Shown here piece after piece: positions 3,001 through 64,000 of a stretch of DNA of 64,000 bases. The notes under the pieces were generated by a model, which was given only the letters and a program-made list of their open reading frames with translations, was not told where the DNA came from and made no database searches. Positions within the stretch are counted from its first letter, which is position 1, and every line of letters begins with the position of its first letter. The position numbers and the translations under genes were made by a program. The stretch is from Sphagnum magellanicum (lineage: Eukaryota; Streptophyta; Sphagnopsida; Sphagnales; Sphagnaceae), in the NCBI GenBank assembly GCA_021904315.1, contig CM038918.1, positions 10,617,349-10,681,348 on the forward strand, given 5' to 3'.

Positions 3001-4360
3001 ATCCCATTGTTGCTTACAATGATCAAAATCCCTTGTAAAATTTGAAGTATATTGAACTTGAAATGTTAATGTCATCACAAACTAGCTTCACAAATCCCCT
3101 ATGGATCTTCATAATCTCCATAACATGCCTTTAACATAATCATTCTAGTGAATGTTTTTGCTTTTCTAACTTAGAGCTTCTCGACACAACATAAAATTTG
3201 GAGGCTTAATGATGGCAAAAGACATTCATGTTATAAACTTTTTTTTTCTCAACAATCACACTTTTCACTTTGTAAACAATCATTATATTCATTCATCTCA
3301 ATAGGATTCTTCCCAAAAATAAATTTGAAAAAAAATCAAATTACAACATTCAGGATTATGAACACTTAGCTTTTCTCAATGCTTGCTTGCTCCATTAATT
3401 CTTGTCTCTAATTTATTTCCAATGCATCAACAAGTTCATCACCTCCAAAAAAACAAGAGATAGGTAACAACCCAATAATAGATTTGTAGCTTTAGTTATT
3501 AAACATCATGAAGACCTCCACAACAAAACCAACAAACCATTCGTTCTCGAAAGACAATGCATGCTTTGCCTACATGAACAAAACACCAAAATCACCCTAA
3601 AAAAACACTAAACATATTGTTGGTATTTATTCACCTACAAGCAAACAACACACATAGTGCAATTTGTAGAATAGTCCAAAGAGATACACCCATTTTCCTT
3701 AATTGCCTTTGATCGTTTCCCTAATCTTTCCCATACACACACCCCAAAAACATTCTTGCTTTTCTCTTGTCGACATCCTCTTTTTTCTTTTCATCAACCA
3801 TCCAATTAGGTTAAACACTTCAACTATGTTCCCCACTTGCTAAAAAATGCCTCATTATCATTCTATTCTATGTCACACAAGAATAAAGTGTAGGATAAAA
3901 ATTCGAGGTCATAAGCTTTGCCGAAATATGGGCCTATGTGATGCGGAGTTGAATGTGGGCTTGATTTTATTAAAGCACTATGACCAAGGGCTTTATTGAG
4001 CGTAAAGACCTACTTTGATCTATTTAAAATTTTCCTCATGATACTTGTTGGGTATCATAGGGGAGGAAAAAAAAAGGCATTTTGAAGAATGGAATACCCA
4101 TTAGATGTTAGAGTGGGCATTCAAACGCCCACAAAAAATAAAGAAAAAAAGGTGCACCTTGTAAGATGCACTCCAATTACACAACAAAAATTGGAGCAGG
4201 TCTTTATGCATAGGGTAAAGCTTGAGGGGGCGGGGGTCTTTATGGGAAGAAGGGCCCTGTGAGACAGAGCCTAGCATGGGTCCCAATTCCCTTAAAGACC
4301 TACGCCCAGGGCCTTGTGTAGGGCTTTATGCGGCGGCATCAATGGCGTTTTTTTGGAATT
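1..4360. other. AT-rich spacer, no supported gene
   Basis: Reading frames here are short, random in composition and lack recognisable motifs. The stretch is AT-rich with many homopolymer A/T runs. I see no splice-consistent coding, RNA gene or transposon ends. The last 400 bases become richer in G and C as the metaxin promoter is approached. An imperfect palindrome of the TGATAC...GGTATCA type lies near 4038-4059 and is treated under findings. Confidence 0.5.
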
Positions 4361-4364
4361 TTTT

Positions 4365-4760
4365 TTACCCTTCCGGGTATTTATGAGGAAAAATAATGAT
4401 GACCGGCTTAAAAAAAAGTGAAACGGTCACCTCTGCGGGCACTTCACTTTTCTTAATGTCTGCTTGGGCAGTGATAATATTCAAAAAAATTAATCTGCCC
4501 CCTGAAGTGATAAATTTCTTTACTTCTGCCCCGGGCAGGAAATGGGAAAAAGCCAGACAGAGGGGCGGGCTTGTTAGTAGGAAGGGAGCGAAGGCGGAGA
4601 AGCGGGAGATGGCGATTGCTTCAGCGATGGTAGCTTCTCGCGACCTCGGATCGAAGCAGACGCGCAACATGGCAGAGGAGGAGCTTTGAGCTTGCATCTT
4701 CTCCTCTCTCACGAACGTAGACTGAAGAGTATCTACCCAGTAGTGGCGTCAGAAGAAGAG
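4365..4760 (+). promoter_or_regulatory. Presumed metaxin promoter and 5' UTR
   Basis: The base composition shifts sharply to GC-rich here, ahead of the metaxin start codon, which is usual for a plant promoter and 5' leader. No convincing TATA box was found at a normal distance. An upstream in-frame ATG at 4686 would add 25 residues that do not resemble the family's N-terminus, so this part is more likely leader. The exact transcription start cannot be read from sequence. Confidence 0.35.
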
Positions 4761-5780
4761 ATGGCAACAGTAGCGGAGCAAGGAAAACAGGAATCTCAGC
4801 TCGTGTTGTTGGTCAGAGAAGGAGGTTTCGGACTTCCCACGGCGTGCCCTGCATGCCTGCCGTGGTTTCTTTACCTCAAGCTCTCCTCGGTTTCCTTCCA
4901 GACGCAATACAGCGGCGTGGAGCCGGACTCTGAGGATCTCCCTGCTGTGGAGTACGGGGAAGCAGTAGGGTTCGCTAGCGAGAGCGGCGGGATTTTGGAG
5001 TTTCTGAAGAGGGAGAAGATTGCGGATCTGGATGCCGCTCTCGCGGAGGGGGAGAAGGCGGAGCTGGAGTCGTGTAAGGCCATGGTGGAGTCATGGATCG
5101 TTGATGCGAGTTTATATGAGATTTGGATGCGTGACAACGATAAAGCTGTCAGAAAAGTTTACTTCGCGGCATTGCCAATGGGATTGTCGTATGCCCTTGA
5201 TTGGAAGCAGCGCCATTCTGTCATGCAGCGGTTAGGGGTCACCACCGAGAATGCCAAGTCCAGAGGCGACGAGCTTTTGAGAAAAGCTGGGATGGCGTAC
5301 CAAGCTCTCTCTGTCCGTCTCCAGGACCAGAAACTGTTCTTCGGTGATCGACCCACGAGCTTGGATGCTTTGGTCCTCGGGCATTTGCTCTTCCATCTCA
5401 ATGTTTCCTTGGAGGTTTCCAACCTGAGGGAAGAGATCTCCAAATATCCCAACCTCGTGACCTATGCTCAGAGTCTGAAGAGTCAGCTGCTGGGAGGAGA
5501 CGATGGCGTGCCAATGGGCTCTGCGTTTGGAAATCCCAAGGCTCCTCCTCCTCCACCCCCGCCACCACCAACTTCTACCACCCGTCAATCCTCCTCACCT
5601 GATACTTCTGACAAGGAGAAACCAGCCAACAAATCCAGGAATGAGAAGGAGAATTCGTTCAAAAAGAGGGCTAAGTATTTTGTAATTGCACAATTTGTGG
5701 CAATTATTATGTATGTTGTGTTTGCGGGCATTGATTTTGAAGATGATGCTCAAGATGATGATGGTAGTGATGATGAATAA
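4761..5780 (+). CDS. MTX: Plant metaxin, mitochondrial outer-membrane import protein
   Basis: Encodes 339 residues from the ATG at 4761, close to the roughly 315 residues I recall for Arabidopsis metaxin. An in-frame ATG at 4686 gives 364 residues, but the extra part lacks family features. The N-terminal thioredoxin-like part carries the family signature FGLPTACPACLP at residues 23-34. The central part matches the GST-C-like domain, with YEIW near residue 90 and a DRPTSLDALVLGHLLF block near residue 200. A run of nine prolines (residues 262-270) and a basic linker lead to a single hydrophobic helix at about 306-324 and an acidic tail, as expected for a tail-anchored outer-membrane protein. 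In plants metaxin helps beta-barrel precursors reach the outer membrane. The frame is one uninterrupted exon with no decay. Family assignment is firm; the start is the main uncertainty. Confidence 0.93.
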   Translation: MATVAEQGKQESQLVLLVREGGFGLPTACPACLPWFLYLKLSSVSFQTQYSGVEPDSEDLPAVEYGEAVGFASESGGILEFLKREKIADLDAALAEGEKAELESCKAMVESWIVDASLYEIWMRDNDKAVRKVYFAALPMGLSYALDWKQRHSVMQRLGVTTENAKSRGDELLRKAGMAYQALSVRLQDQKLFFGDRPTSLDALVLGHLLFHLNVSLEVSNLREEISKYPNLVTYAQSLKSQLLGGDDGVPMGSAFGNPKAPPPPPPPPPTSTTRQSSSPDTSDKEKPANKSRNEKENSFKKRAKYFVIAQFVAIIMYVVFAGIDFEDDAQDDDGSDDE

Positions 5781-5838: not shown

Positions 5839-8162
5839 TCCTTTTTTGTAGGGCTGGAGAGGAGGCAGAGGACAAGTGTACCTCTTCGTCAATTTGACCT
5901 TTGTCTAAATCCAGTGTTGAGGAATGGTGGCAGCACCACCAACAACCCAATGCCATAAAGAATTGAGTTCACTCATTCTCCCATCTGTCTGTTTCTAGGT
6001 ATTGTTTGAGGATTAGGGTTGAAGGATGGTGGTTGCTCGATTAGACAGTAGTGATCATAAGTAGCTCACCCTGATTTAGGGTTTCTTCAATTCCTGGCGG
6101 AAAAGCAGCAACATATATGGTGATGTTTGAAGGTGTATTGTTGGTGCCTTGCCCTCTCTGTATGTCCCTTGGTGGACATTGATGTCAAAGGATGTTGACA
6201 ATGGTTCAGGTGGAGATCTATGTGTTCTCTTCTATGAGCTTCTTCACTTGCAAACAAAATTATGGTTGGATGATTGCATCAGTGGAGAAGCCTTTTGTCT
6301 TATCTTTTCCTAGGAGTTTGTACATATGGGATTGAAGTATGGTTGCAGTAGAAGCAATCATTGGGGGGCTTCATAGTGGTCACTCCCCTCTGTGTTTAGG
6401 GTTCCATGAGGCAACCTGTCAAGCAAGACAAGTCAAAGGAATTGTGGGTCAGTATGCAGTCATCTGGGATGCTCATTTTGATAGTGAAATAGTCCTTGGG
6501 TTGTATTTGCAGATACTGTCAGATTTGTGTTACCATGGTGTTGTCCCCCTGCTGAAGACACGTAACATGAGTTCAGAGCAAAGCAGGCGAGAGTAGAAAA
6601 CTGAGGGCAAATTTATGAGTGAATTTTATTTGTTTGTGAACCCATCAGCCATTCCAGGTTGTAGAGCCTGGGAGAGATCAGAATTCTAGTGAGCAGTCAG
6701 GGCCTGAGCACAGTGCATCATGTGTTTCATTCATGGTTGTACATTCCAAAACTTATTCAAACTTTTCAAGCTGCAGATGGGTTGCATTATATCAATTCAC
6801 AATCTTTTAATAGATTTCTCAGGGACAACTAAATGTTTTTTTTTGCATATTCTGGCCATGAACTAGTCTAGTTGTGGGTTTCAGTTTCAAGGGACAATGT
6901 GTACATGAACCACCCCAAAGCCAACTTCTATAAGAGTAGTTGTTGATAGGGAGTGAGTTCCAGGACTTTGATTGCCCATGGAATGCAGGTTTGTTGTTTA
7001 TTCTGGTTGTGTGTTGGTATCCAGTCATGCAGTTTGTAACTTGTAAGTGGCTGGTATCAATCCATAGTGGCCAACAGAATTCTGATTACCCTTCATAGCG
7101 AGTTTTGTTTGTGTAAAATTGAAAGATTTTAGTATCCACGAAGATTAGAGAACACATTTTTAAATGCTGGAAGTCAAAATTTATGTGTGCAATTGCCTTG
7201 TTTGCTGCAACCTTGTACTGCACATGGGTTCCTCTAGCAAGAGCAGTTTGGTCTTCCAGCCCAGATTGCACAGGAAACTTGGACACAGGCACAGATGTGA
7301 TGACTTATTAATGTTGGACCTTACCATTTGCTGATGGCATGAGAAACCCGGTGAAAAAGATTTTGGCCTCAGCACCCAGTGACTACAGTTTTGGCGTCAG
7401 CATTTGATGCATCACATGCAGACAAAAGGCTTCTGGATCCTGACTGAGCACTTGCTGCACCATCTGTTGAGATCCACTTGGTGTATAAGTGGTGTGTTCT
7501 ACATAGAAAGATGCATTTGGCTCTGGGTTCACAATTTTTGGCATGTGGCTTCACACCACGTGGCATAGAGCCTTCACCAGAACATTAGAAGATAACTATA
7601 GCAGGGTAGAACTTTCAAGGGACTTGGGGCTCAAGGTTGATCTGCATTCAAGCAAGTTTCTATAGCTAGGTTCTTGTCTTGTTCTGTCTGTGTGTTTTCA
7701 CATTTCCTTGCTTGATTGTTAGAACTTGAACACCTCTGTGATCTGTGGCCCACTTGTTTTTCCTCCTATACAACAATACTGCAATTTCACCAAGCAATCA
7801 TGGAAATATCATGTTTCAATCAATCCTCCAGAATGAGATTACTGGATCAAGGTCCACCTAATAGAGGAAGACCACATATCAATGAAATTGCAAAGAGATC
7901 TTCACAACAGCAATTTAATGCGAACATTACAGTGAGTGCAGTGATTTAACTTTTGAGAGTCACTCACACAGAGCCAGACAATCACCTTCATCAAGAATAT
8001 CAGTGATAAGCTGCTGTGCCATTTCTTTCCATGAAATCTACAAATCTCAGACATGCAAAGTTTTTAGTGAACTGATGCATCAGGTTTTACAGAATAATTC
8101 AGCTTGCCACCAGTCACACACATGCTTGCACACTTTGCTGATATTATAGAAACTTTTCCACA
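5835..8162. other. Metaxin 3' flank and spacer, nothing recognised
   Basis: The first few hundred bases may be metaxin 3' UTR. Beyond that, reading frames are all under 90 codons, lack motifs and cannot be linked by plausible splice sites. Composition is more balanced than in the AT-rich deserts, so this could be old promoter-proximal or transposon-derived DNA, but I cannot assign it. Confidence 0.4.
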
Positions 8163-13004: not shown

Positions 13005-13432
13005 ATTCTTTAAGGTGTATCATTAAGGACAAAAAAGACCTAGCCCTTAACAAAGTCTTTTAAAATTTTTATATTAGCCTGTAAACCCATTTTGTAAGCA
13101 AAATGATCAAATAAGTGCATACCTTTTTGTCCCACATCTTAAATAAAGAGACCGGTCTTTCATTTTGGCCCTGATGATGATCGGCTTTGATTTTTTTTCT
13201 CAAGTTGTACATGGTTTCTTTGTCACATTGTGTGGGTGAGGAAAAGGGCGAAGGGCCCCCCTTGAATGTTGGCTTCACTGCTGTTCGTCACGGCTAGAGC
13301 AAAATGATCAGAAGAAAGGATTGTGTGCAACTGTAGTTTGATGTGTAACTTGATGTAATTACACAATTACTTAGGTAATTGTTTAAAAGGGTAAGTTGAG
13401 TGGTAGGATTCCATAATTTGGTCATGGTGCCT

Positions 13433-13715
13433 CATGTGATATTATTTCCTTGTGATTAATTGTGGAATCACATGTGCACCATGTGATATTGTTCCTTTGT
13501 GATTAATTGTGGAATCACATGGGGAATCATGTGATATTGTTTCCTTGTGATTAATTGTGGAATCACATGTGCACCATGTGATTATGTTTCCTTGTGATTA
13601 ATTGTGAAATCACATGTGCACCATGTGATTATGTTTCCTTGTGATTAATTGTGGAATCACATGGGAGACCATGTGATTTTGTTTCTTTTTGATTATTTGG
13701 AGAACCATGTGGTGG
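13433..13715 (+). repeat. 47-bp tandem repeat of self-complementary units
   Basis: Six units start CATGTGAT at 13433, 13480, 13528, 13575, 13622 and 13670, so spacing is 47-48 bp. Each unit ends ATCACATG, the reverse complement of its own start, with TTGTGATTAATTGTGG in the middle. Every unit can therefore fold into a hairpin. The last copy is degenerate. Confidence 0.92.
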
Positions 13716-14097: not shown

Positions 14098-14974
14098 AAC
14101 GGTGCCAAAAAGTTTTGGGAATAGAAATTTCATGCAGCCAATGGGAAGGCTCAACCTGCATTCAAGGTGTCTTGTTTTTTTATTTTAAGTTTTGAGGGGG
14201 AAAGGGGGGGGGGGAAGAGGAAGATTTTTTTCATTTTCCCTTTGTTCCAACAGGTTCCTAATGTGTTCCCCATGGGTTTTCTTTTAAGTTTTGGGGGGGA
14301 GGGGGGAGGGTGAAGGGAAAAAGGAAGATTTTTTTCATTTTTCTTTTGTTCCAACAGGTTTTCAATGTGTTCCCCATGGGTGTTCCCAATCGCACCTTGT
14401 TTTAATCCCATATGTTTTGCTCAAAATCTTCCCCTTCTTACATATATCGATGGGCCAAAGGGGAGGCACTCCATTTGTCCATACAATTTTCAATTTTTGT
14501 GAGCCTTCATAGTTTCAATTTTTTTTTGCTGGGGCCAATCAAATTCAATAAAAAAAAAGTTGACTTGTGAGGGGTAAAGGTCAAGCAAAAAACGGTGATA
14601 AATTTTTTTGAGAGGAGAAATTTCATGCAGCCAATGGGAAGGCCCAAGCACACACTGAATGTGCCTTGCATTTTTTCCTTTTAAGTTTTGAGGGCGGGGG
14701 ATTTAGAAGGGGATATTTTTTAGTTTTCCTTGGTTCTCATTATGTTGACCATCCCACCATCCGCTCACTTTGGCTGGCCAAAAATGGTGATAAACTTTTT
14801 TGGGAGGATAAATTTCATGCAGCCGATGGGAAGGCCCAAACACACATTGAATGTGCCTTGCATTTTTTCCTTTTAAGTTTGGGGGGTGGGGGATTTAGAG
14901 GAGGATATTTTTCAGTTTTCCTTGGCTCCCACTATGTTGACCATCCCACCATCTGCTCACTTTGGTTGGGGCCT
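14098..14974 (+). repeat. Duplicated G-rich segments (192 bp and 104 bp)
   Basis: Two adjacent 192-bp copies (14591-14782 and 14783-14974) share TTCATGCAGCC, GGGAAGGCCCAA, TGTGCCTTGCATTTTTTCC and CCATCCCACCATC. A partial older copy starts at about 14098. Inside it a 104-bp duplication has TTCCAACAGGTT at 14245 and 14349. Long G runs occur on the plus strand in every copy. Confidence 0.85.
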
Positions 14975-16265: not shown

Positions 16266-16304
16266 TACTTTGAAATGACTTTTCCTCCAATCAAAGCTTT
16301 ATAG

Positions 16305-16625
16305 GGTTTGCCTTGGTAGGCAAGGATATTGTGTTTAGATTCAGTATAGAGTATATAGTAGCTGAAGGGATTTTGGCCCCTAGGTAATAAATAGTAGGTC
16401 TATTTTTATATGAGGGATTTTGAAAGATGATAGTTTTTTGGCTTGTGTTGAAACTTGAGATTAGTTATAGAGTTCTAATATCTTGAAGGATTTTGGTTTT
16501 TGTTAGAGGATTTTTGGAAGATTATAATTTTTGTGTGGTTGAAATATTTGAGTTTCCATAATTCTTCTTTTGCCTTAAGATACTTTTAAATGTAAATGGC
16601 AAGGCCATAGTGTGACACACCCCCC
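16305..16625 (+). repeat. Dispersed ~320-bp repeat, copy A
   Basis: Nearly colinear with copies at 37681-38003 (+) and 39315-39625 (-). Shared words include GCAAGGATATTGTGTTTAGATT, TATTTTTATATGAGG, GGCTTGTGTTGAA and TTCTTCTTTTGCCTTAAGAT. It starts at a short palindrome (TTGCC TTGGTA GGCAA) and ends near a GTGTGACACAC palindrome. No coding. It could be a MITE, a TRIM or a solo LTR. It lies 45 bp upstream of the TATA box of the ARM-repeat gene. Confidence 0.88.
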
Positions 16626-16813: not shown

Positions 16814-19800
16814 ATGCTTCAAGAAGAAGGTGATGATGATGATTCTGCGGCTCGCATGATGTTGTGGGAAACGAACAACAGAAGAGCTGCTGCACTCCCA
16901 CCTCTTGGCCGCGTCTTAGCTACAATCTTTGCAGCAGAATATCGAGAAGTTGAAAAGAATTTGGTCTCGGACAGTGCACGAACAAAGCAAGGTAAAAACC
17001 CTAAACCTTTTCTTTTTTTCCTCAATTCCCATGAGTTGCACATCACTCTGTGGCAACCAATCTTTTTTTCATTGCCTTAAAAACCCTAAACCCTTTCTTT
17101 GTTCTCAGTGCATATGAGTGTACATCACTCTGTGGCAACCGATCTTTTTTCATTGCCTTAAAACCCTAAACTGTTTCTTTGTTTTCGATGCATATGAGTG
17201 CACATCACTCTGTGGCAACCAATATTTTTTTCATTGCCTTAAAACCCTAAACCCTTTCTTTGCTTTCAATGCATATGAGTGCACATCACTCTGTGGCAAA
17301 CAATATTTTGTTCATTGCCTTAAAACCCTAAACCCTTTCTTTGTTTTCAATGCATATGAATGTACATCACCATGTGGCAACCAATCTTTTTTCATTGCCT
17401 TAAAACCCTAAACCCTTTCTTTGTTTTCAATGCATATAAGTGCACATCACTCTCTGGCAATCAATGTTTTTTCATTGCTGTAAAGCCCTAAACCCTTTCT
17501 TTGTTTTCAATGCATAAGAGTGCACATCACTCTGTGGCAACCGATAGTTTTTCCATTGTCTTTGATGCTGCTGTATGACAGAAATGCTCAAATCTGTGTT
17601 TGAATTATTAGGGTCAGTGGGGCGAGCTGTAACATCACTCCTTCAGCATGTGGATAAAGGATTGCAAAGTGGATCATCATTGGATGAGATCCACATTCCT
17701 TTGCTTGAGCATGTAAGGACTACAGCAAACACTTGTTGGTTGCCATTGCGTTGGTTGATAGATCTTCGAAACTAGTTTTGTTGCAGAAATTTTCAACTCC
17801 ATTGGGCCTACTAATGTGTGAGTGGATGAACAATGAGCATTATCCTAAGTCTACCTTGTTCATTCACTGCTTTTCTCATGAAGATATATTTGACATTTGT
17901 GTCAATTCCCATACTCATTCTCATGCTCCCCACTCACTAACTACTTTAGGCTTAGGTGGGTAGCTCGAAAGGATCCCATCTAGTGACTTTCCAAGTTGGA
18001 TTGTCTAACTGGTGCAGGCTGTGAAGTCAAAAGACCATGGCAACCGCAGGAAAGTTGTTGCTCTCATGCAATGGCTGTTGAAGGCAAGTGAATTTCGGAA
18101 ATCTCTAGGAGATAGCTTGGCAGCCATAATAGGAGCTTCACAATGGGATAACCGGGTCAAACTTGGTTGGTGTGTCGTGGTTCGTGAGCTAGTGGAGCTG
18201 GGCTCTCTCCTGTATGATGTTTCTCCAGCTTCTTCAGGTATATATTGCCTGGTCATCATCTTCATGATTAGTTCTTCTTACTCTGCTCTGTAATTTTTCA
18301 TCTCACTTATGGATTTTGGTTTGCATGTCCAGGACAGATAGACAAAGGGCTCTTTCAGCTTTCACCCTACTTTATGAGCTTTGTGGCTTGTGTGCCTCTT
18401 CTCGTGCAGATTGTTTCCAATGCAAGGTAAGCCTTTTGTCAGCCTTATGTCAAAGAATTTGATGTCTCTGCATTCAATCCTTTCTCTAATCATCTGCACT
18501 TGGAAGCATGTCTGCTCCAGTAGTGCCAGCAATGTATCTCCAAGGTAGACGGTTGAGGGTGGTCTTCTGGTGTCAGGTTTATGGTCTATGTTGGAATCAG
18601 GGTGCCTACAACAGATTCCATCTGAACCTGAAAGCAAGTAGTGGCTACTGGAATTAGCAATGTATGTTTACTCCAAGTAGTATTGCAACCATTTGGGTAG
18701 ACAAAAACCTGGAGGATGTTCATTTCTTTCCTGATGAAGGCATTATATAAGATGGCAGTGTGAAGGAGGAAGGGAAGCAGAGGGCACCAACACGCCTTAC
18801 AATTGCTGCGGCGGATTGCAGTATAGTGATTACAAGACAGCTAGCAACAGGACCATCTTCACAATTTAACTTGACAGGGAAACCAAAAGAACCAAAAGTT
18901 GAAATCCAACCACAAAAGAAGGTCCTTATCACACCTGCCAGTTCCAGATCCTTAGACTCAAGATCTGCAAGGGATGGTGTCAGCCATTTGAGTGAGGATG
19001 ACAATATCACAAGCACATCAGGCATCTATTCTGAATTCACTCTCCCTGTCCTCTACTCCCTTCTTTGCAACAAGGTGATATCTTATGAGTACTATTGCTC
19101 TGTTTCTGTAATGGGAATTGCTTATGTTCTCAAGTTTACTGCAGGTAGTGTGCCACAGGCTGTCTCCAAGGATTATGTGGAACAAATGCTCTGGGACATC
19201 TTGGATGATGTCATCCTCCTTGTCACAGAGCTTCATGAGGTGATTCATCTTGCTTTTGTGGTGGTTTTCTTGTATGCTATCTGCAAGGATGGTAGTGTAA
19301 GCATATACTGTTTCAGGTGTGGAGTGCTATTTCACCATATTCTATTTCAGGTATACTAGTTCGTCTTCAGGTTCTCATGAAGTCAGTTGGGAGGGATGGC
19401 ACCTAGTCACTGTCATCCATGAAGGCAGTGGTCTGACACTTCATGAGTGAGGCTCACAAGGCTATGACCACACTCTTTCTTGTTATGTTTGTGTTGGTAT
19501 TGCTGGAACTGATACAGTGATTACCTTCAAGTTGTTATTTGGAGTTTCCTCTGCAATCTTGTGGATATATGTCAGGTGCCAAGTGTAGTACACATAAGCC
19601 TCAGCACACTGCTTCACCATTATTCATATCTAGAGCTCTCAATGGCATTTACACCCATGCAAGATTCATCTTCCTGTCCTTTCTGGAACGTTCTATGCAG
19701 TGGAATCGCAGAGGACGGCTGTTGCATGCTCAAGGGCTCCAGCAAGTTCAAAAACGATTGCAAGTCTTGGCGAAATTTCGAGACTCCTTGCAGTCACAGG

Positions 19801-37509: not shown

Positions 37510-37680
37510 AGTGTCGACCAAGCGCCCAGGCTAAATGGGGTTGATTTGTCTAGCATTTTCTGGAGCATTTATGTGGCAGCGCTAGGCTGGGTGGTCCTCG
37601 GAGATGTTTGTTCCGAAACTGTGGTCAGTAGGGTCATTTTTATTAATGAAACAGTGCCTTGTTTTTGCTTTTGTTTTTTG

Positions 37681-38003
37681 GCCTTGCCTACCAAGGCAAG
37701 GATATTGTGTTTAGATTCATTCTAGAGTATATAGGTAGTAGCTTAAGGGAGTTGGCCCCCAGGTAGTAGGTCTATTTTTATATGAGGATTTTTGAAAGAT
37801 GATCTTTTGGCTTGTGTTGAATTAAACTTGAGATTTAGTTATAGACTTCTGATATCTTGAAGGGTTTTGGTTTCTTTTAGAGGGTTTTTTTTTTAAGATT
37901 ATATTTTTCCATGGTGAAATATTTGAATTTCCGTAATTCTTCTTTTGCCTTAAGATACTTTTTTAAGTAAATGGGGGCAATGCCATAGTGTAACACACCC
38001 CTT
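37681..38003 (+). repeat. Dispersed ~320-bp repeat, copy B
   Basis: Colinear with copy A (16305-16625). It begins with the palindrome TTGCC TACCAA GGCAA, whose middle six bases are the reverse complement of those in copy A. It ends ...GTGTAACACACCCC. It lies about 170 bp beyond the CPP1 G-box, upstream of that gene. Confidence 0.88.
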
Positions 38004-39314: not shown

Positions 39315-39625
39315 GAAGGGGTGTGTCCGCACTGTGGCATTGCCATTTACATTAAAAAGGCTCTTTAGGCAACATAAGAATTATGGAAACTCAAATATTT
39401 CACCATGCAGAAATATAATCTTCAAAAATTCCTCTAAAAGAAACCAAAATCCTTCAAGATATTATAACTCTCTAACGAATCTCAAGTTTCAACACAAGCC
39501 AAAATATCATCTTTTAAAAATCCTCATATAAAAATAGATCTATTACATAGGGGCCAAAATCCCTTAAGCTAGGGTACTCTATAATGAATCTCGACACAAT
39601 ATCCTTGTCTTGGTAGGGAAAGCCA
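39315..39625 (-). repeat. Dispersed ~320-bp repeat, copy C (inverted)
   Basis: The reverse complement matches copies A and B from the terminal palindrome region to the ACACACCCC end. It lies in opposite orientation to copy B, about 1.3 kb away, with the MITE and copy D1 between them. Confidence 0.87.
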
Positions 39626-39753
39626 ATAAAAATTATCTGCCTCAGGCTGCACCCATTAACAATAAACATTACACACTGTTATTCTGTATTCTGAGTTTGT
39701 AGCTAAAACCCACACTTGGGCCACCCACAAATTGGGAATGCTCTCAACATGAG

Positions 39754-53290: not shown

Positions 53291-54499
53291 TTGATTTCAT
53301 TCATGGATCATGGTTCATGTGTTGTGTGGGTGGGTGTGAAAACAATGAACTTGAAAGTGTGAAATGCCCAAGATTTTTTTTCCAATGTTTGTTATACTTG
53401 TTTGTATTCGTTTGCATTTGTTTACGTGATGTATAACATTATCTTCAAAGTAGACTGAAAATTATACAAGGTAAAAAAGGCATAAAAATGATGTGATATG
53501 ACTCATTCTACATGCATTTTGGAATTGGTGATTAACCATAAACCTAATGCCATTGATTATGTGGTTATTGCACTTGGTTTTTGCAAAGGAAATTCTCCCC
53601 ACTCATGTAAAGCTATAACAATCTTTTTTCTTTTGTTGTTTAAACATGTTTCTCCTATATGTACATTGCAAATTAATTGTGTGACATTGAACTAACATTT
53701 TGTCTCTTTGTTTATGCATGTGTGGGTTCAAGATTTTGCTAAAAGTACTTTGAGTCACAAGTTTCATTGTGGAATTGGTAAATGAAAGTATGATGTTTTG
53801 TGAAATGCTTCTCTCATGACATCTATTATTTTGTTGTTTTTGTAATTTGCCTTTGGGTGAACTTTTGTACTAAAAAACCACTCATATGTGTGTCAAGTAT
53901 TTACGTAGTAAATCTTTGTACAACAAATTTCATATCAAACTACCTCATGGAGTTTCTAATGTTAACATAATGTAGAAAGACAACTCATGGAACATGATAC
54001 CCATCAAATTCATATTATGGCATTAGATGTTTTGCACAATGCAAGATTTGTGGTGTCTTGAGATGGGCCAACAATTTTTTTCATGAGAAAGTTCAAGAGT
54101 TTCCACATTCATTGAAAAAAAAAACTTGAAGGAAACTGTCACGGGCACAAAAACAACCAAGTCTATAGGATTTCTTCACCAAGATGAGAACAAAGGTGGG
54201 CCTAGTGCCAAATCCAGATCGTGAAACAAGAAAAACAAGAACAACAATATGACATGTGCGAAACAATAATCCAACAAGATTTAATTGCAAGGAAGAAACA
54301 AAAAAAGAATAGGGTTATGATAAGAAAACATACCCAAAATTAGTGTTGAAAAAATTGAAGGTAATGGGGAATTCTACTTCTATTTATATCTATTGAGCAC
54401 CTAGTTCAAAGAAGTTTTTTAAGAAACTTCCAACCTACATGTGGCCCATGTTCACCCATATGTGCCCATGTGTGGCCCATGTGTATGTGAATTATGAAT
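53291..54499. other. AT-rich spacer
   Basis: A short protein-like frame (53498-53695) may continue the decayed coding stretch just upstream. Between 54430 and 54490 the words GTGGCCCATG, TGTGCCCATG and TGTGGCCCATG form a short local repeat. Nothing else was recognised. Confidence 0.35.
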
Positions 54500-54752
54500 G
54501 AACTAAAACTTAGCTAAAAGTGAACTATAATTCAATTAAAAATTAATTAAAATTCAACTAAGAATGACCTAAAAATTAACTGAAAATTAATTAGAAGTGA
54601 ATTAAAAATTAATTAAAAGTCAATTAAAAGTGAACTAAAATTTAACTAAAACTGAACTAAAACTTAATTGGAAGTGAACTAAAATTTAATTAGAAGCTAA
54701 CTGAAAATGAACTGAAACTTAATTAGAAATTAACTAAAAATGAACTGAAATT
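54500..54752 (+). repeat. 11-bp satellite, 23 units, no indels
   Basis: From 54500 the sequence divides exactly into 23 consecutive 11-bp units of the form (G/T/C)AA(C/T)T(A/G)(A/G)AA-N-T, for example GAACTAAAACT and TAATTAGAAGT. Units differ by substitutions only. A-tracts recur every 11 bp, close to one DNA helical turn. Confidence 0.95.
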
Positions 54753-57700
54753 AAAATAAAAATTAAGTACAAGTTCCAAGTCATGAATGAACTCCATGAC
54801 ATTGGCATCCGTGACACAATGGCTTAAAATCTTTTTAAAATGGTGTTATAATGTATGTAGTCTAATGACATGAATAAGGCATTTACAAGTTGGCTTTTGA
54901 ATGTACATTGATTACATAGTCATGTACATTATTTGAATGTTCAAATGTGGTCAAAATTCAACAATGGTAGAAATGGTTAGTCACAATTTAGCCCAATCTA
55001 CATATGTAGATTTTTAATTTTATGTGAAATATGTTTTCTTCAAGTAAATTTTCAATGACAAAAGTTTCTTGAACTTTGTGCAACTATTCGGGCTTTTGAC
55101 ATTTGGATCTCATCCATACATCTTTGTTCAATGGTAGTTTGCATAATTATAACGAGAAATTGATATCCAAAAAAATAAATAAAGAACATTAGGTTGAATT
55201 GTCAAAATGTTTCATGTTCATTTATTCCATTGTCTTAAAATTTTGATGATAGGATTATTGATCATGTGTCCATATGGATTAATGCATGTTGGTTGTAAAA
55301 GATTCCATAAAATATGAACAAGTAAAATTGCAGGCAATGGACGTGTGAAAAGGATCTTCAATGCAATCATCCCTAAATCTTGTTGGGTGATACTAAAACT
55401 ACAATCATTTTTAATTTGTGGAGATTTTAATTGTGCATCAGTGGTTATTAACTTGCAAAAGTGACTTGTAGGAATTTCCATTCACTTAGGCAAAGAGACA
55501 ATTTTTTTAATGTACTTATGAAAGCATCCTCCCCTGCATGAATTTAGAAATCCATTGCAATTAACATTCACATACTTTGGTGAACATGCTCATTAATCCA
55601 CATTAGTCAACATAGTCCATCTAATTAGACATATCCATCAAATTTGGATTATTATATTTAGATTCTTGCAAATTAGATTACAAGCTAACATCTTCCCTAT
55701 GCATATAAATAAATTTGTTATGTTAGATTAATTTTGCATCCATGAATTCTATATTTACTATAATTGGTTTTAACATATTCAATACTAACCTTCTTTTGTC
55801 TTTTAACAATGCTTGCCATTTAAACCATTAAACTCTTGAAAAATTGAACTTTTATTTGAAAGATGATCTTCTCACTCAAACTTCTATGCAATTTCTCTAG
55901 CTAATAGGTCAAATTTGCAATTTGGTTTTGATCATCTTTGTAAATTTAGTTGGAGCATTAAATACTTCCAATCACAAATGAAATAACATGTTACACACAC
56001 CAAACAAACATAAAAACCCATTGTAAAAGATCATATACAATCAAATTAATCTTGTTTTTCCTATTTACTAATATAATCACTTCATTTCTTAGTTGGATTT
56101 GTTCCATTTAACATTAATTTATAAGTACAAAAAAAAATTCATCAAGTGTTACAACACCTTTTATGTGTTTTTGATGTATGTTCTTGAAGCAATCTACAAA
56201 TCCTAGCTCATGTTAGTGGCAATGGCATATTCTTACAACAAATTGGAAACAATAATGACATCTTCCTACAAAAGAGTGGAAAGTTGAAGGATAATGACAA
56301 GCAAGAAAGGAAGTGACATCCAAGAGTTCCAAGCACTATGAGAAATCGTGTCCATAACAACTAAACTACCTTGCAATTAAAACTCCAAAACAACTAATAT
56401 ACAACTACATTATAGTTGTCCCATGGGAATATGGGGAATTAATAAATAAAATGCTAGGTTAAAAAATTAAAGAATTGCACAATAGTTGCAAATTAGTTGC
56501 AAGATGGACATCTATATAATAGAATACATGTACACACTATATATATAATTGTAGTCAATGATGTTTGACTTTGTTGGTAAATTGCACTTGAATAACGTTT
56601 AATAACTACATTACAACTAGGGTAAACGGAACATCTAATTAGTGATTACTTTACAATTAGTCTATAACTTTAACACATATGATCATATCACATGTATGCA
56701 TTTTCACCACCCATTATATATAACATTTTCAACTTGTTTACAATTAGTTGTAAACTATGATTCACATTGATACAACTAGTTATGCCATTAGGTTGCCACT
56801 ATATATAAGTGCTACTTTTCCATTATTTTGTGATTGTACTCAACTGTTTTATTACTAATTTTCCATTACAAACTTTTTGGACCATAGAATTTAATGAAGA
56901 CCTATGAAAGTTTACTCTTGAAATGAAATAAAAAGTAATGTGTATATTGTATTACAAATTCAATTAAGGTGTACATATGGATCTACCTTTATACCATAAA
57001 CATCTAACTACTACATTGACAAAGGTTGATTCCTTCAAGTTAATCATGTGCCTATAATTATTATCAAAGAAATTCAAGATGAATTACAAAGGATAATTGT
57101 TTTTTCTTCTAACAAGTAACATCTAATAAACATGTAAATCAACATAACCAAATAAGCCAAATGAGTATGTGAACACATTAATCAAATCAAATCAAGTCAA
57201 CCATGTGATCATTGTGAACAACTAGTATGCAATCAAATTTCAATTTAGAATTTGAAATTTGGGTGGTAAAATATTAAACAAATGATACATGATAAAAAAA
57301 ATTAACATATTTTCACCATTGCATCAATAACCTTCATGCACCTAAATGCCTAATGTTAAAAAACTCAAGATAAATTAAAAAGGAGAATATATTTCACATG
57401 AAAAAATTTGTGCATTTTTTAGTTTTTTGATGATGTAATTATCATATCATGTGTAACATAACTAAGATTTTATTTTTCCTAGTTTAAAAGTAAAATTGAA
57501 ATGTTATTGCAAGTTTTTTGTTCATTTAAAAAACTTGGAGGTTGAAGGGATTTTTTTTTTCTTAAAGGTTGAAAGTTCTTGTTTTTGTTCTTAGAATTTG
57601 AAGGGTCATGATTCTTGATTTGTTTATTTTCACATATTAAAAGAAATGGTGTGAAAAAATCTTCCATTTTATTAGAATTCGATTTGTAAGGTGTAATTTA

Positions 57701-59133
57701 TAATGATGACGGATTTGTGGGGGGTGAATATGTTTATGAAAATCATGTTATGATTTTGTTTTTTGTTTGAGCATTTGAATTTTTTAAGTTAAAAGTAGAG
57801 TTGAAATAAAATTAATCAAACATATTATTTTTGTACATTTATGATGACTTTTTCTTATGTTATAGGGTCAAATTTTGATAATGTTTAAATCCATCAAAAT
57901 CAAAGTTGTGCATACAAAGTAAGGTTTTTTCAAAAATAAAATGTGATTTTGTTTGAAAAAATAGTTTTAAGTAAAAAAATGCACATATAATTTGATTAGG
58001 TTGTTAATAATTATGTCAAATTGAACATGTTGTTTTTTGTGTAATAATCTAAACCAATATGTGCAAGAAGACAAATTCCAATACAACAAAGATGAAACAT
58101 TTTTTTAAATGGTGAATTTTAACCTCAATACTCCAAGTAGTGATTTTGAAAACCACCATTGTATACAAATGTAATTAATTACAATTTAATTTGTATCAAT
58201 GTTATGCATGTTGCATTTTAATGATAAATGAGTTTTGTTAGTGCCATTGTAGTTGTAAACTAGTTTTATTTAAATTGAAATGATGGATTGTTAGTGATAT
58301 AATTTTGCAAGTGGTAATTCTAATTTTTCCATGAATAAATTATCTACCTCTATATCACTACTAGGTCCATTTGAATGAGTACCATGTAAACACCCTAACT
58401 ATGACAACATTAAATTCTTTCTAAGTCTGGAGATACATTCAATTAATTCCACATACAATATTCAAGTACTAAGAATGGAAGAAAGAACATCCTTTATATT
58501 TCCATAAACCATGAAGCTCTACAATGTTTATCTCGCTTCCTTTCTCTCATAACTCTTCTATTTGATTCTTCTCTTAAAAAAACATCCATAACATACAAAC
58601 AATAAGCATTCGAACCCCCCCCAAGTTAGTTGAAATGCTCTTTTATATTCCCCACAAAACAATTATAATTGTTTAACTATCTCACAAATCGACTTGCCAC
58701 AAATCGACTACACTATGTTGACATAACAATCTGTTGCCGTACCAATTTGCCTATATTGTCATACTGATTTGCTTACTTTGTCACATTCGCTTTTTAATCT
58801 ATCATCTCGACTTGTTTGTCTATCAACTTGCCTATATGTTTATTACTCTATCTCCATTTCCTAACATTATTCCCCTCTTAATTGTTTGTAGTGTCCCCAC
58901 ATAGTAAGTAAGCTCCTAAACCTAACTAGGATGTCCAATATTCTTAGTATAGAGCACCATCTGAGCAAAAGTAAGATAGTTGTCTATCTCATTGTCAAAA
59001 GATTTTGTTCCATCCTTTGTTGTAATTCGCTCACCCTTCACATATTGGTTGATTCAATTAGGTTTCACCAAATGAAGAAGACACTATTAATAATGTACAA
59101 TCTTACTAATGCATGGTCAATTTATCCACCAAA
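54753..59133. other. AT-rich spacer, nothing recognised
   Basis: AT-rich throughout, with short frames lacking motifs. I found no tandem repeats, transposon ends or RNA genes. Confidence 0.45.
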
Positions 59134-59561
59134 TGTTGAATGTGAAGAATGGCCAATTGTAAGTACAATGCATTTTGGCCAAGATGTGCATCTACTGCCT
59201 AAAACTTTATAAGTTCACAACTTACCCTCCACGTAATTGCCAAGGATAGGGTTGCGACACAAAAGGTAGAAAACAAATATCAAGCTACCAACATGGACAG
59301 AGAGTGGGTAGAGACCAAAATGAGGAGATGATTTATGGAATTGTTGCTCTTAAAGTTGAACATCTAACCCTGGCAAAAAAGGCAAGTGTCAAGTCGTATT
59401 CCAAAAGTGATATGGTACATATGATGCTAGAATTGGAGTATGTTTTGCCATTGTTGCCAAATCTAGTAACATACTACTTGTTGTATTGTTTTCAAATTTG
59501 ATTTAGGGTAGGGGTAGCATTGCTAATACTAGAAGGCCATATCATTGAGTAACAATTCTTA

Positions 59562-59942
59562 GCGATGTGGGCTGTAGATGATTTAGAGTGGAAAAAATTT
59601 CTAGCCTATAACATAGTATGTTATTACATTCAGTACCATCAAGTAAGAAGATATGGATTGTTAGAGTTCGAGGTGGGTTGTTTGGGGCTCTATGCCTTGA
59701 GGTACTATTGTAGGTTAGAGTATGCCTATTAAAAGCATTACCACCGACACCATATTGTTGTTTTTAGTAGACCGATTTTTGCCATGACGTGAATGGAGAT
59801 TATCCTAAATCATGTGGTAAGTCAAGTTCATGCCGACTCTAAGTAATGGAAGCAACTAATGGATCACTATTGGGAGCTTGTTTATTTCATTAACTTGGAA
59901 GATCGTGCAATGGAGGCAAAGACTTGCAAAGGTGTGGGCTAA
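59562..59942 (+). pseudogene. Decayed coding stretch (plus strand) of unknown family
   Basis: One frame of 126 codons from 59562 reads AMWAVDDLEWKKFLAYN, GLLEFEVGCLGLYALRYY, HRHHIVVFSRPIFAMT and WKQLMDHYWELVYFINLED. It is interrupted by only three stops (TAA, TGA, TAA), each one C-to-T change from a CAA or CGA codon. The same frame seems to extend upstream to about 59500. Composition is clearly protein-like, but I do not recognise the family. It converges on the minus-strand coding stretch further right. Confidence 0.5.
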
Positions 59943-60684
59943 GAGTGAAGCCCATGAGTCACGTTTCACGCTCCCGAGAATGTAGGAGAGTGTGAGGGAA
60001 TGAACCCACACACTCCCAAATGGGCTTTCATTTTGGGAGCTGGAGTCCCGATGGACTCTCGAATTTTCAGAGAGTAATTTCAGGGGACAAAGCTCAATGG
60101 ATTGAAGAATTCCTTATACAATTAAAAGACTCTTGAAACGTAAATGTTTAAAATGGGTTCCCATGACCCATTGAAGTACTTAAAACACAAGTTTTGGTCA
60201 AAAGAAAGGTCAAGAGTTAGAGTGTCAATTTGACTCCCGACTAATAAAAGTGAAGAATCGACCTAATTTACTTATGTAAAGGTGGCGTTCCTCATATCAT
60301 TGGAAAGATCTCGACAAGGGTTACAACTTTGCTTTAAATTTCACTTCAATTGGAAGTCTCCACAAAACGTTATGAACCTCCAAAGTTGCAAAAATCTCAA
60401 TTTCGAGAATTTCGAGAGTCACGACTTGGGAGTCCCGGGACAAAATGACATTTGGGTGCAACCCACGTGGCCAGGCACAAAAAATATTATAAAGGTGAAG
60501 GTGGTGTCTTCCCCCAAGTTTGGGCCATGGTGAATTTTGTGAGTATGTGTATGGTCGTGGTTGGTCCATGCACTAAAAATGCTTCAACTACACATTAACC
60601 AACTTGTTGCTTGGTTTGTGTAGGTTCATGTGAATAATTGACCCACTTGTCATTCGTTTTAGTCCTCATCTTGAAGCTTCAACA
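59943..60684 (-). repeat. Possible LTR of a minus-strand element
   Basis: On the minus strand a purine-rich AGGGGTAGAGGGGCA (60685-60699) is followed at once by TGTTGAAGCTTCAAG. This is the arrangement of polypurine tract plus TG start of a 3' LTR. The far edge is unknown; I place it before the plus-strand coding remnant. No second LTR lies in the window to confirm it. Confidence 0.4.
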
Positions 60685-60789
60685 TGCCCCTCTACCCCTA
60701 AAATGCTTTGAGCTAACGAGTGTACCCCAACTCCTTCTTCTTTCATTGTTTTACCTTTGGACCCGTAGTTGTGTTAGTTAAAGAGTTTG

Positions 60790-63700
60790 GGGGTGCATCA
60801 TTCTATTATTTTGTTTTACCTATTCTTGTAGGATTTACTACCTCTTGTTTCCTTATCAACTTTTTGATGGATGTGGTCTCATCCCCATCCTCTTTTAACA
60901 AAGAAACTTGTTTCGCCTCTTCTTTAATTGCTTCCTCATTAACAATTTCCTTTATGTTGTCTTCCTCGTATTTCCTTTCAAGCTATCAAATACTTTCATA
61001 TGTAGCACCGAGAGCAATTGTGTATTTCCTAATTTGCTCGAAGTGCCACCTGTTGAATTCTATTTTAACCTCTTCCAAGAATTGATCCATTTCCATTAGG
61101 AGTCACTTGATGAGTTTGTCATCTAACGGTGCCTTGGTTTTATTTTCAATGGCCACATTTTCCCAATCATTAGCGGTTTGTAAAGTAAATGACTCTACTT
61201 TGTTTTGTGCCATTTGTAACTCCTTCCATAATGTCTTTTCTTTTGCCACCAAAATCTTTTGATCCTTTTGATGATTTTCATGAACATTCTCCACAGAAAG
61301 TAATGATGGTCACACATAAGCCATCGGGTCGCACGACAGAATAACACCCATAACAAAGATGCAAACTCCTCCATGTGAAATCTTCATAGTCATGGGAACT
61401 TTTTGAAAGTCATGACCAACATTTATCAGTCTTTTTGGTAAGGCGCGAACAATAAAAAAGATATTCCAATTATTTTCGAAAACAAAAAAAAGAGCTTGCA
61501 GAAAAGCAAGCAGAAAATAAAGAGCCAAAAATTTGGCTTTTTCGTTGAGGCCGAAGGTTTCTGAAAATCGCAACAAAAAAATCAAAAATATTTTTGATTT
61601 TTTCTCTTTTTCCAAAAAAGAAAAAAATTCTCTCTTTTCATTTTTGCCTCTTTTCTCGTCGGGCCAAAGTGCTTGGCGCTTTCTTCTTTGTGCCTGCTTA
61701 CACCCACCAAATACTCAATTCATTTTCTCGTTGGTGCAGAACCTCTTCCATCCCCTTCAATTTTTCATATAGGTTGAACTACTCATTTTTGAGTGATTTG
61801 ATTTCCTTGTTCCTAAAGTTGATTTTTGCATTAGCCTTCATGATAATCTCTTGATGGTGTTTTAGTCCTTCCTTATTTTCCATCTCTGTAACTTCCCTCA
61901 CCATTTCCAATTCCTCTAGAACTAATTCCTCTTGAGTTTGTGACTTCCTAAATTACTAGTGTAGTTGTTTGATCTTCTATGTTTCTTTCAACAACCTCTC
62001 ATGGTTTGACTTGTTTTGTGTTAGTTGAGCCTCAAGGTCGAGGTTCCTGTTTTATACTTCTACTAAGACTTCATTTGTTTCCCTCTTTTCATTCTCTAAA
62101 GTATAACTCTTGTCTTTAGCTAACACATTTCTTCTCTTGAAATCCTCTAACTTTCTTCATAAATTGTTTTCTCCACTTGGTTTGCTAGTTGCTTATATGT
62201 TTCCTCCGGTTGTTTTGCCATCCTTTCATTTTTTTTTGCAATTTTTGAACTTTCCCATTTTTCTTCCTAATCTTCTATGCTAACATCTCCAACTATTCAG
62301 CCATGGCATCCAAATCCCCATTGGTGGATGCACCACTCTCCATAACCACTAATTGTTTTGCCATATCATTAACAGCTTCTTGCCATTGTTGATCCATCAC
62401 TACTAATGCTCTTGTATGCAGTTCTTCCTCCATTTGTTACACTTTTCCTTCCTATTGATTCTTCCTTGTCTGTTCATTTTTTTTAGATTGCATTAACAAT
62501 TCATTTTCCAGTTGTTGATGAAATGGTTTTTTTATTGCAATGATCTCCACATCCTCATCTTTAAAGTATTGAGATTTGTGATATTTTCCTTCAATAACAT
62601 TGACTACCTCATGTACTTTCTCCTTCTCCATATCCACATTTGTTGGAACATTTTACATACCCTCTTTTTCTACCAATTGTGTTTTTACTTCTTCTACAAT
62701 GGGTAATAAGGGTTTTGCCATTACCTCACTAGGTATTTCAACATGCTTCCCTCCAATCTCACTTATAATGTTTGAAGCTTCAATAACTTCACCAAGATTC
62801 CCCTCTTGGATTGGAGATACCTTTATGATCTCCTTGCTCGTGGTTACAATCGATTTGCTCTTCTTCTTTTTCTTCTTCTTTTTCTTTACTAATTGGATTG
62901 CATTAACATCCACAATCATCTTTTTTTTCTTGTTTTGGGTCTTCTTCTTGGTCCCAATAAATTCTTCTTTCTCTGGCTCCAACTATTTCAAATAATGATG
63001 ACCAATAATGGTCAGAGTTGGTCCGGCTAAGGTATTTCCAATTTTCTTGTTTTGTGCTAAATTGCAATGATTTCATTTTGCAACTTGTGTGAAAACCAAA
63101 CAACCCAATTCAATTCCTCCTTTTTTACTGCTAACATCGTTGAAATTAAAGCACCTGGAGCAAACTTGTTTCCTTGTTTGAAAGACATAATCTCTGGTAA
63201 TGCTTCTATTCTAACTACCTTCCATCTGCCATTTGCTTTGGTAATTAAATAGCTTGAGCATGGTATGTAATGTTCGGAACAAACCTCTCTACTTGCTTTG
63301 CCTTCATGTACTCCTAGACTTGTAGTAGATTTGACTCAAGAGCATAATCACAATCATCCCGCTCCTTTTCCTAGAAAACTTGAAATTTTCCTTTCTCCAT
63401 AGGCACCTCCATTCAATGCAATTTTTCTTGACACTCCTTCACATTCAGATGGGGGTGATTAAAACTCCACACATCTTCAAAGTTAAAACTCTGAAGCGTT
63501 GTCATTCTATAATTACTATCTTATTCACTTCTAGTTTCTTCCTCCCTAGTCTTTCTTATTCTCTGGTCTGGTGGTTTATACAAAGTTCTTCACTAATCTA
63601 GGGTTACAGATCGAGAAGCATGTCGTTTCTACACATATTCTTCTGCAAATCTCTCTCCACTAAACTTCCTAGTGTATGGCTTGAACCAAAAATCTTTTGG

Positions 63701-63960
63701 CACTCCTTGTTTTACAGCTGTTATTCTACTACAAATTTTTTTCTCGCGCATTTCTCTTGCTCTTGCATTCCACTCAACAATCTACTCATTATCTCTTTCT
63801 GAGTAGTCCTTCCACACATGGTATTTATGTTTGATGGCTTTCAATTCGGCTAACTCTTGAGGACATAATAGTTAATGGCCATATAGGACGCAACTCATTC
63901 ATGGGCATGTTGAGCATATCATGCACTGTTTCCTTCACACAAGTTAATCTAGGTTGTAAA
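60790..63960 (-). pseudogene. Decayed long coiled-coil protein, possibly from an LTR element
   Basis: On the minus strand, protein-like sequence continues for about 3 kb with frameshifts and many stops. Segments in order include ETVHDMLNMPMNELRPIWPL (near 63930), KKKKKKKKKSKSIVTTSKEI (near 62860), MEEELHTRALVVMDQQWQEA (near 62420), MAKQPEETYKQLANQVEKTI, QEELVLEELEMVREVTEMEN, EKLKGMEEVLHQRENEL, then LLMEMDQFLEEVKIEFNRWH (near 61090) and TTSIKKLIRKQEVVNPTRIG. The middle is rich in E, K, Q and L, as in a long coiled coil. Many stops are TAG or TAA where CAG or CAA would fit. An unrelated block at about 61310-61730 interrupts it. I do not recognise the family. The decayed state and the adjacent LTR-like edge suggest transposon origin. 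Confidence 0.55.
61310..61730. mobile_element. Probable small insertion within the coiled-coil remnant
   Basis: The coiled-coil reading breaks at about 61730 and resumes at about 61300. The block between has different composition and holds three hairpins in a row: GCTTGC/GCAAGC (61494-61511), AGCCAAA/TTTGGCT (61523-61538) and a 28-bp perfect palindrome (61576-61603). Ends and target-site duplication were not resolved. Confidence 0.45.
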
Positions 63961-64000
63961 CTAGTTTTCCTATTTTTATAGCTCCTTTTTTTATTTACAT

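Follow-up and report, generated by a model that had tools for sequence, protein, structure and literature searches.

What is the protein-like sequence that fills the last 3 kb of a 64,000-nucleotide stretch of Sphagnum magellanicum DNA (the window; C12:10617349-10681348), and to which element does it belong? An earlier note made from the letters of the window alone had placed this minus-strand sequence at 60685-63990, had described in it a lysine-rich segment and an E/K/Q/L-rich, coiled-coil-like part, and had read it as an open reading frame (ORF) outside gag and pol, carried in the 3' part of a long terminal repeat (LTR) retroelement whose LTR edge lay at 60684. Using a genome search space of 439 Mb in 31 contigs, we think it probable that the window holds an old, 5'-truncated and inactive copy of a Ty3/gypsy family that carries an extra ORF (eORF) in sense orientation between the integrase and the 3' LTR.

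The coding-like sequence on the minus strand of the window is real but decayed. Both the lysine-rich segment and the E/K/Q/L-rich part lie where they had been reported, and the region as a whole is coding-like at its reported place; within what had been described as about 3 kb there are also an insertion of ~415 bp and a deletion of 582 bp. The frame is broken, requiring three reading frames and containing stops throughout. Along 60745-64000 of the minus strand, the cheapest path of stops and frame changes came to 26; dinucleotide shuffles gave 40.0 +/- 3.3, and none of the 200 was as low. This signal originates in 62200-64000 (again 0 of 200); the paths through 61690-62200 (141 of 200 shuffles as low) and 60745-61310 (78 of 200) were not significant, and in the latter interval it was the plus strand that had the better score (4 of 200). 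We accepted the frame as real because homologous copies exist in the genome, and a chance coding signal was rejected by the shuffle test together with these homologues.

Pol domains, which the earlier note had proposed to look for beyond position 64000 along with other genomic copies, paired LTRs and a primer-binding site (PBS), lie directly upstream of the frame on the same strand: RVT_1 (E = 3.3e-12) and Integrase_H2C2 (E = 2.2e-11), both above the Pfam cut-off. A related copy on contig C8 (loci L029 and L030) shares 83% DNA identity with the window from pol through the frame. Its pol matches RNase H (1.1e-15) and, below the Pfam cut-off, rve (6.8e-5) and RVT_1 (7.3e-4), and the order of reverse transcriptase (RT), RNase H and integrase is that of Ty3/gypsy elements. 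The C8 copy has direct repeats of 556 bp with TG...CA ends at 6815-7367 and 17704-18257 of the joined locus; these are 84.7% identical and have diverged by a Kimura two-parameter distance of 0.166 over 549 sites. The C8 3' LTR begins with TGTTAG, ends with CTAACA and is preceded by the polypurine tract (PPT) AAGAGGGGAATAA. Either AAGAGGGGAATAA or AAGAGGGGAGTAA precedes TGTTAGG in the window, C8 and C15 copies, as a PPT before the 3' LTR. At the other end, TTTGGCGACC follows the C8 5' LTR; the candidate PBS after this LTR is TTTGGCGACCATACG, with no tRNA assigned to it. The C8 element measures ~11.4 kb, of which ~4 kb comes after the integrase. Only the 3' LTR was found in the window copy, and it aligns with both C8 LTRs. 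Gag-like and protease-like regions were recognized by eye only, and a chromodomain after the integrase had no Pfam match in L029:3110-3688, the copies being decayed. Judged from these sequence features, we class the element as a Ty3/gypsy LTR retrotransposon. The earlier reading of the locus, as the 3' portion of an LTR element that carries an ORF outside gag and pol, is borne out: pol lies upstream, past 64000, and the element's own 3' LTR lies downstream.

We then asked how consistently the eORF accompanies this element elsewhere in the genome. A protein search with the N-terminal part of the eORF returned 83 genome matches (the window's two included), which fall into 59 clusters. From 28 candidates, the upstream 1.3 kb was fetched for 20 copies; an integrase C-terminus was present there on the same strand in 14 of the 20, and in 0 of 20 for a reversed control. 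The element's LTR occurs at no fewer than 41 places in the genome, counting the window's own (40 of 57 candidates scored). At least 15 of the 59 clusters, including the window, have a same-strand match to this LTR no more than 20 kb away, and none do in a strand-flipped control; random LTR placement gave a mean of 0.15 and a maximum of 3 in 1,000 runs, with contigs of no known length set to 15 Mb. The earlier note had held that copies lacking flanking LTRs would speak against its reading, and no such refutation was obtained: the C8 copy has its LTR pair, and at least 5 clusters, among them C8, are flanked by LTR matches at either side.

The eORF also bears traces of selection. Four distant copies (L054-L057) share 27-57% amino acid identity with locus L033, and across seven comparisons the synonymous divergence (dS) ranged from 1.63 to saturated, with nonsynonymous divergence (dN) of 0.26-0.75. 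The resulting dN/dS was about 0.3 or less in each of the seven, a rough bound that applies to the N-terminal domain only. Between close copies, coil pieces had a lower rate at the second codon position (0.06-0.09 versus 0.17-0.25), and one long eORF piece compared to the window gave 0.10 at the second position versus 0.21 and 0.15 at the others, with no such drop in the LTR. At the level of sequence divergence, the distant copies show a pattern indicative of purifying selection, acting across diverged subfamilies on the eORF's N-terminal domain.

If the eORF belongs to this element, what of the edge at 60684? The letters that had been read as a PPT followed by the start of an LTR are present, AGGGGTAGAGGGGCA at 60699-60685 and TGTTGAAG at 60684-60677 of the minus strand, and they would make the coiled-coil ORF and that LTR parts of one element ending there. 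A 401-bp query across the edge produced 4,246 first-look candidates; the 40 that were scored all matched (39 besides the window's own), and 10 of the 39 other places were fetched with flanks for comparison, loci L002 and L007 being left aside. In 10 of 10 the repeat starts at the counterpart of position 60800, at TGAYGCACC, 116 bp upstream of the claimed edge, apart from one BLAST alignment that extends 10 bp further, and it ends in ACA. Target site duplications (TSDs) of 5 bp flank these LTR ends exactly in six copies, with one mismatch in two and not at all in two; an exact TSD at other ends in C16a was left out of this count. No partner LTR was seen in the stretches searched, which reached ~18 kb upstream in 8 copies, 8 kb upstream in 2 and ~1 kb downstream, and the two copies without a TSD may have a 5' LTR further off. 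We therefore read the compared repeats as probable solo LTRs of another family. In the window, the flanks of this nested LTR are TAGAA and CAAAA, a TSD with two differences, both transitions. Locus L032, the copy on C15, retains an uninterrupted, empty site at the counterpart of 60800, where the frame crosses the insertion point and continues through 3000-3833 of that locus with four stops, and the nested LTR had no match in five loci (four copies) of the element.

The reading with an element end at 60684 is refuted because of this empty site, and the start of the repeat at 60800, its TG...ACA ends, its TSDs and the true LTR at 58866 likewise leave it with practically no credibility. The purine run AGGGGTAGAGGGGCA is instead, by sequence comparison, internal to the LTR of the other family. 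Correcting this boundary matters, as it would have tied two unrelated elements together. The nested LTR family is itself abundant genome-wide, to judge from the candidates above, and no complete element of this family was found around the 10 compared copies within the stretches searched.

With the false edge removed, the window copy can be laid out as follows, in the direction in which the element is read.

61709-64000, minus strand: decayed eORF with the N-terminal domain, the lysine-rich segment and the first coil part, running beyond 64000 into the integrase; 83% DNA identity to C8, with stops and frameshifts.

63275-63276, minus strand: deletion point at which 582 bp of the C8 copy are missing (14374-14955 of the joined C8 locus unmatched).

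61294-61708, no strand assigned: insertion of ~415 bp within the eORF, with a 28-bp perfect palindrome at 61576-61603; absent from L029 and L032.

60801-61293, minus strand: eORF continued, coil part and after; 61296-60832 matches L032 at 78%.

59914-60800, minus strand: nested LTR that belongs to another, high-copy family (TGATGCACC...) and that we take for a solo LTR, from the common start base in 10 of 10 copies and the TSDs.

59263-59919, plus strand: inverted block of C-terminal eORF sequence, in the opposite orientation to other copies (reverse matches to L029 and L032).

59240-59259, plus strand: last bases of the nested LTR, inverted, which mark where the inversion ends, from a by-eye comparison with LTR ends.

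58867-59240, minus strand: end of the internal region, with the PPT AAGAGGGGAATAA at 58879-58867, from alignment with the C8 copy.

58289-58866, minus strand: true 3' LTR (TGTTAG...CTAACA), aligning with the C8 5' and 3' LTRs.

This copy is old, 5'-truncated and inactive, broken by stops, frameshifts, a deletion, an insertion and the nested LTR. In its history, the other LTR inserted at 60800, and an inversion then flipped the last bases of this LTR and, with them, ~650 bp of adjoining element sequence (59919-59263). No clear target duplication was found around the ~415-bp insertion. Gaps of ~560 bp separate the N- and C-terminal matches in several other copies.

What might the eORF encode? 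In total it is ~4 kb long, lies in sense orientation between the integrase and the 3' LTR, and has a conserved domain at its N-terminus, followed by a lysine-rich stretch, a helical part and another, C-terminal part; the broken frames appear to reach the PPT. Stop-free stretches of 318 and 354 amino acids (aa) occur in L029 and L033, with upstream pol shown for the C8 copy. Pieces of the eORF had no significant match in Pfam or the PDB, the best PDB sequence match being T-cadherin at E = 0.52. A 151-aa piece retrieved only phrog_2312 from PHROGs (E = 0.084); in IMG/VR contigs, three stretches fitted a pattern with this piece and none was confirmed, and a search of plasmid DNA gave no result. 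Weak Pfam matches at E values of 0.01-1, below the curated cut-off, were taken as chance (LCM, z-alpha, AntA, SYCP2_SLD, WWE, DUF5070, NADH5_C, SecM, N-glycanase_N, Crust_neurohorm and Chordopox_A35R). A supposed resemblance of the N-terminal domain to the plant transposon-protein domains PF20167, PF04195 and PF10536 found no Pfam match, and the last two, which are eORF domains of the Tat type (Retand, Ogre), had none in Pfam scans of the eORF pieces. For a 57-aa stop-free piece of the coil, a single-sequence structure prediction gave one 50-residue helix at residues 7-56 with a mean predicted local distance difference test score of 94.6.

Several observations weigh against our explanation. 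The integrase C-terminus was not found in 6 of the 20 copies, and among the matches listed, 44 of the 59 clusters had no match to the element's LTR within 20 kb and 20 of the 41 LTR places had no eORF nearby; we assume that LTRs of other subfamilies, solo LTRs, decay and the scoring of 40 of the 57 candidates account for these. The TSD of the C8 element as a whole is unclear, its flanks TGTTT and TTGTT not matching exactly, and three short gag pieces and one protease-like piece had no Pfam match. By codon position, close copies are near neutral in most pieces, pol included, as dead copies are; among the distant copies, dS is partly saturated and the stretches were picked by similarity, which lowers dN. 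Heptad periodicity is weak, with one of five pieces standing out (19 of 300 shuffles as good; 53 to 255 of 300 for the other four), and in a second heptad test three coil pieces gave 78, 12 and 65 of 200 shuffles and the intended non-coil control 8 of 200. The label "coiled coil" thus stands on composition and a predicted helix.

Other origins for the eORF have to be weighed against this background. An envelope-like gene and virus-like spread, as speculated for SIRE and OTA elements, would fit a sense ORF downstream of pol with a helical, coiled-coil-like part. We nonetheless judge this very unlikely, given that the eORF pieces had no Pfam envelope match, that a search for a membrane helix reached a maximum 19-residue Kyte-Doolittle hydropathy of 1.39 in nine pieces (which cover part of the ORF and come from decayed copies), and that a lysine-rich segment fits contact with nucleic acid better. 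The eORF could also be a host gene carried as a passenger, in line with the earlier note's alternative of a captured host coiled-coil gene. The extra ORFs of plant elements seem to be of many origins (PMC6317226), and a host relative is possible among the 83 matches, whose gene context was looked at in a minority. The position after the integrase in 14 of 20 copies and the selection across diverged subfamilies speak for a functional component that the element has long had, and we hold host capture to be improbable. Somewhat less doubtful, if still unlikely, is that the eORF is no separate gene at all and that the gag-pol polyprotein carries it as a long C-terminal tail, which is compatible with our explanation. 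A stop-free stretch in the window (64226-63828) connects the end of the integrase with the beginning of the eORF, and in L029 the two lie in one frame with several stops between; in copies this decayed, a stop that was there from the outset looks no different from one gained later.

Under the explanation that we favor, a Ty3/gypsy family with a sense eORF, the full element would have the form 5' LTR, PBS-like site, gag-like region, protease-like region, RT, RNase H, integrase, sense eORF, PPT and 3' LTR, and would move as an ordinary copy-and-paste Gypsy retrotransposon. The eORF protein, made either as part of a pol product extended at its C-terminus or from a message of its own, may oligomerize through its helical segment and bind nucleic acid through its lysine-rich stretch. 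It might then serve as an accessory factor of the element's RNA or ribonucleoprotein, acting in packaging, nuclear transport or the handling of the integration complex. We offer this functional step tentatively, as one that we would sooner expect to be revised than upheld. With similar reserve, we speculate that a bryophyte-lineage group of Ty3/gypsy elements may have kept a ~4-kb accessory gene without known domains after the integrase over deep divergence and under purifying selection, that its product may be a self-associating basic protein of the element's RNA or integration complex, and that it may have been acquired independently of the extra ORFs of seed plants.

In plants, extra ORFs that lie in sense orientation between pol and the 3' LTR have been given a class name, eORF-3'F (Neumann et al. 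2019, PMC6317226). In that survey the extra ORFs of Ty3/gypsy elements form 314 groups, 21.4% of the surveyed extra ORFs had a match in CDD, and the question of function was left open. The present eORF resembles the eORF-3'F of plant Ty3/gypsy elements and SIRE in being a sense ORF of more than 250 codons between pol and the 3' LTR and, as in most, in having no known domain; set against the survey, it differs in lacking a significant Pfam match. By its sequence it is best placed as a further group within this known class. The non-chromovirus clades Phygy (Physcomitrella) and Selgy (Selaginella) are described in PMC6317226 as short, with polyprotein coding that spans nearly the whole interior, and their layout sets them apart from the present element of ~11.4 kb. 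Retand, a Gypsy element with antisense TRP28 ORFs (PMC11963269), likewise has a long coding region between pol and the 3' LTR, whereas the ORF here is in sense orientation and had no PF04195 match in the Pfam scans. CERV, an extra protein of the LTR element Cer1 of Caenorhabditis elegans, is required for export of genomic RNA (PMC10309623) and provides a model for such a possible role, as a functional analogy and not as a relative. LTR elements of bdelloid rotifers also have an extra ORF3, in some cases with coiled coils; these are env-like or encode an enzyme (PMC5408684), and no such domain was found in the present eORF. Our literature search found no paper describing the present ORF, which is not proof that none exists.

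The eORF is a tangible example of an additional retrotransposon gene that diverged subfamilies have conserved, and the apparent selection on its N-terminal domain is evidence that this extra ORF had a function, where the general question stands open in PMC6317226. We regard it as useful for transposon biology and not as a new kind of system.

A few other features surround the element. Just upstream of the truncated pol, locus L009 (~69500-68000 on the window scale) holds hAT-transposase-like remnants (Dimer_Tnp_hAT, E = 0.003, below the Pfam cut-off), and a stretch similar to them (65% identity) lies downstream of the LTR in L032. A phytochrome gene with PAS_2, GAF, PHY and PAS domains lies beyond the window, at 269-2452 of locus L010 (74269-76452 on the window scale), and starts ~6.5 kb from the broken end of the element, on the upstream side. 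Within the window, the neighboring genes are likewise plant-like: GST_N_4 and GST_C_6 domains, of the metaxin type, lie at 4686-5780, and a CPP1-like protein is encoded at 35.0-36.6 kb. An interspersed repeat of ~330 bp occurs in three copies (16298-16623, 37674-38003 and 39318-39630) that are 82-83% identical, one of them inverted, and tandem arrays occupy 16993-17562 (unit ~81 bp), 13423-13707 (~47 bp) and 54457-54796 (~11 bp).

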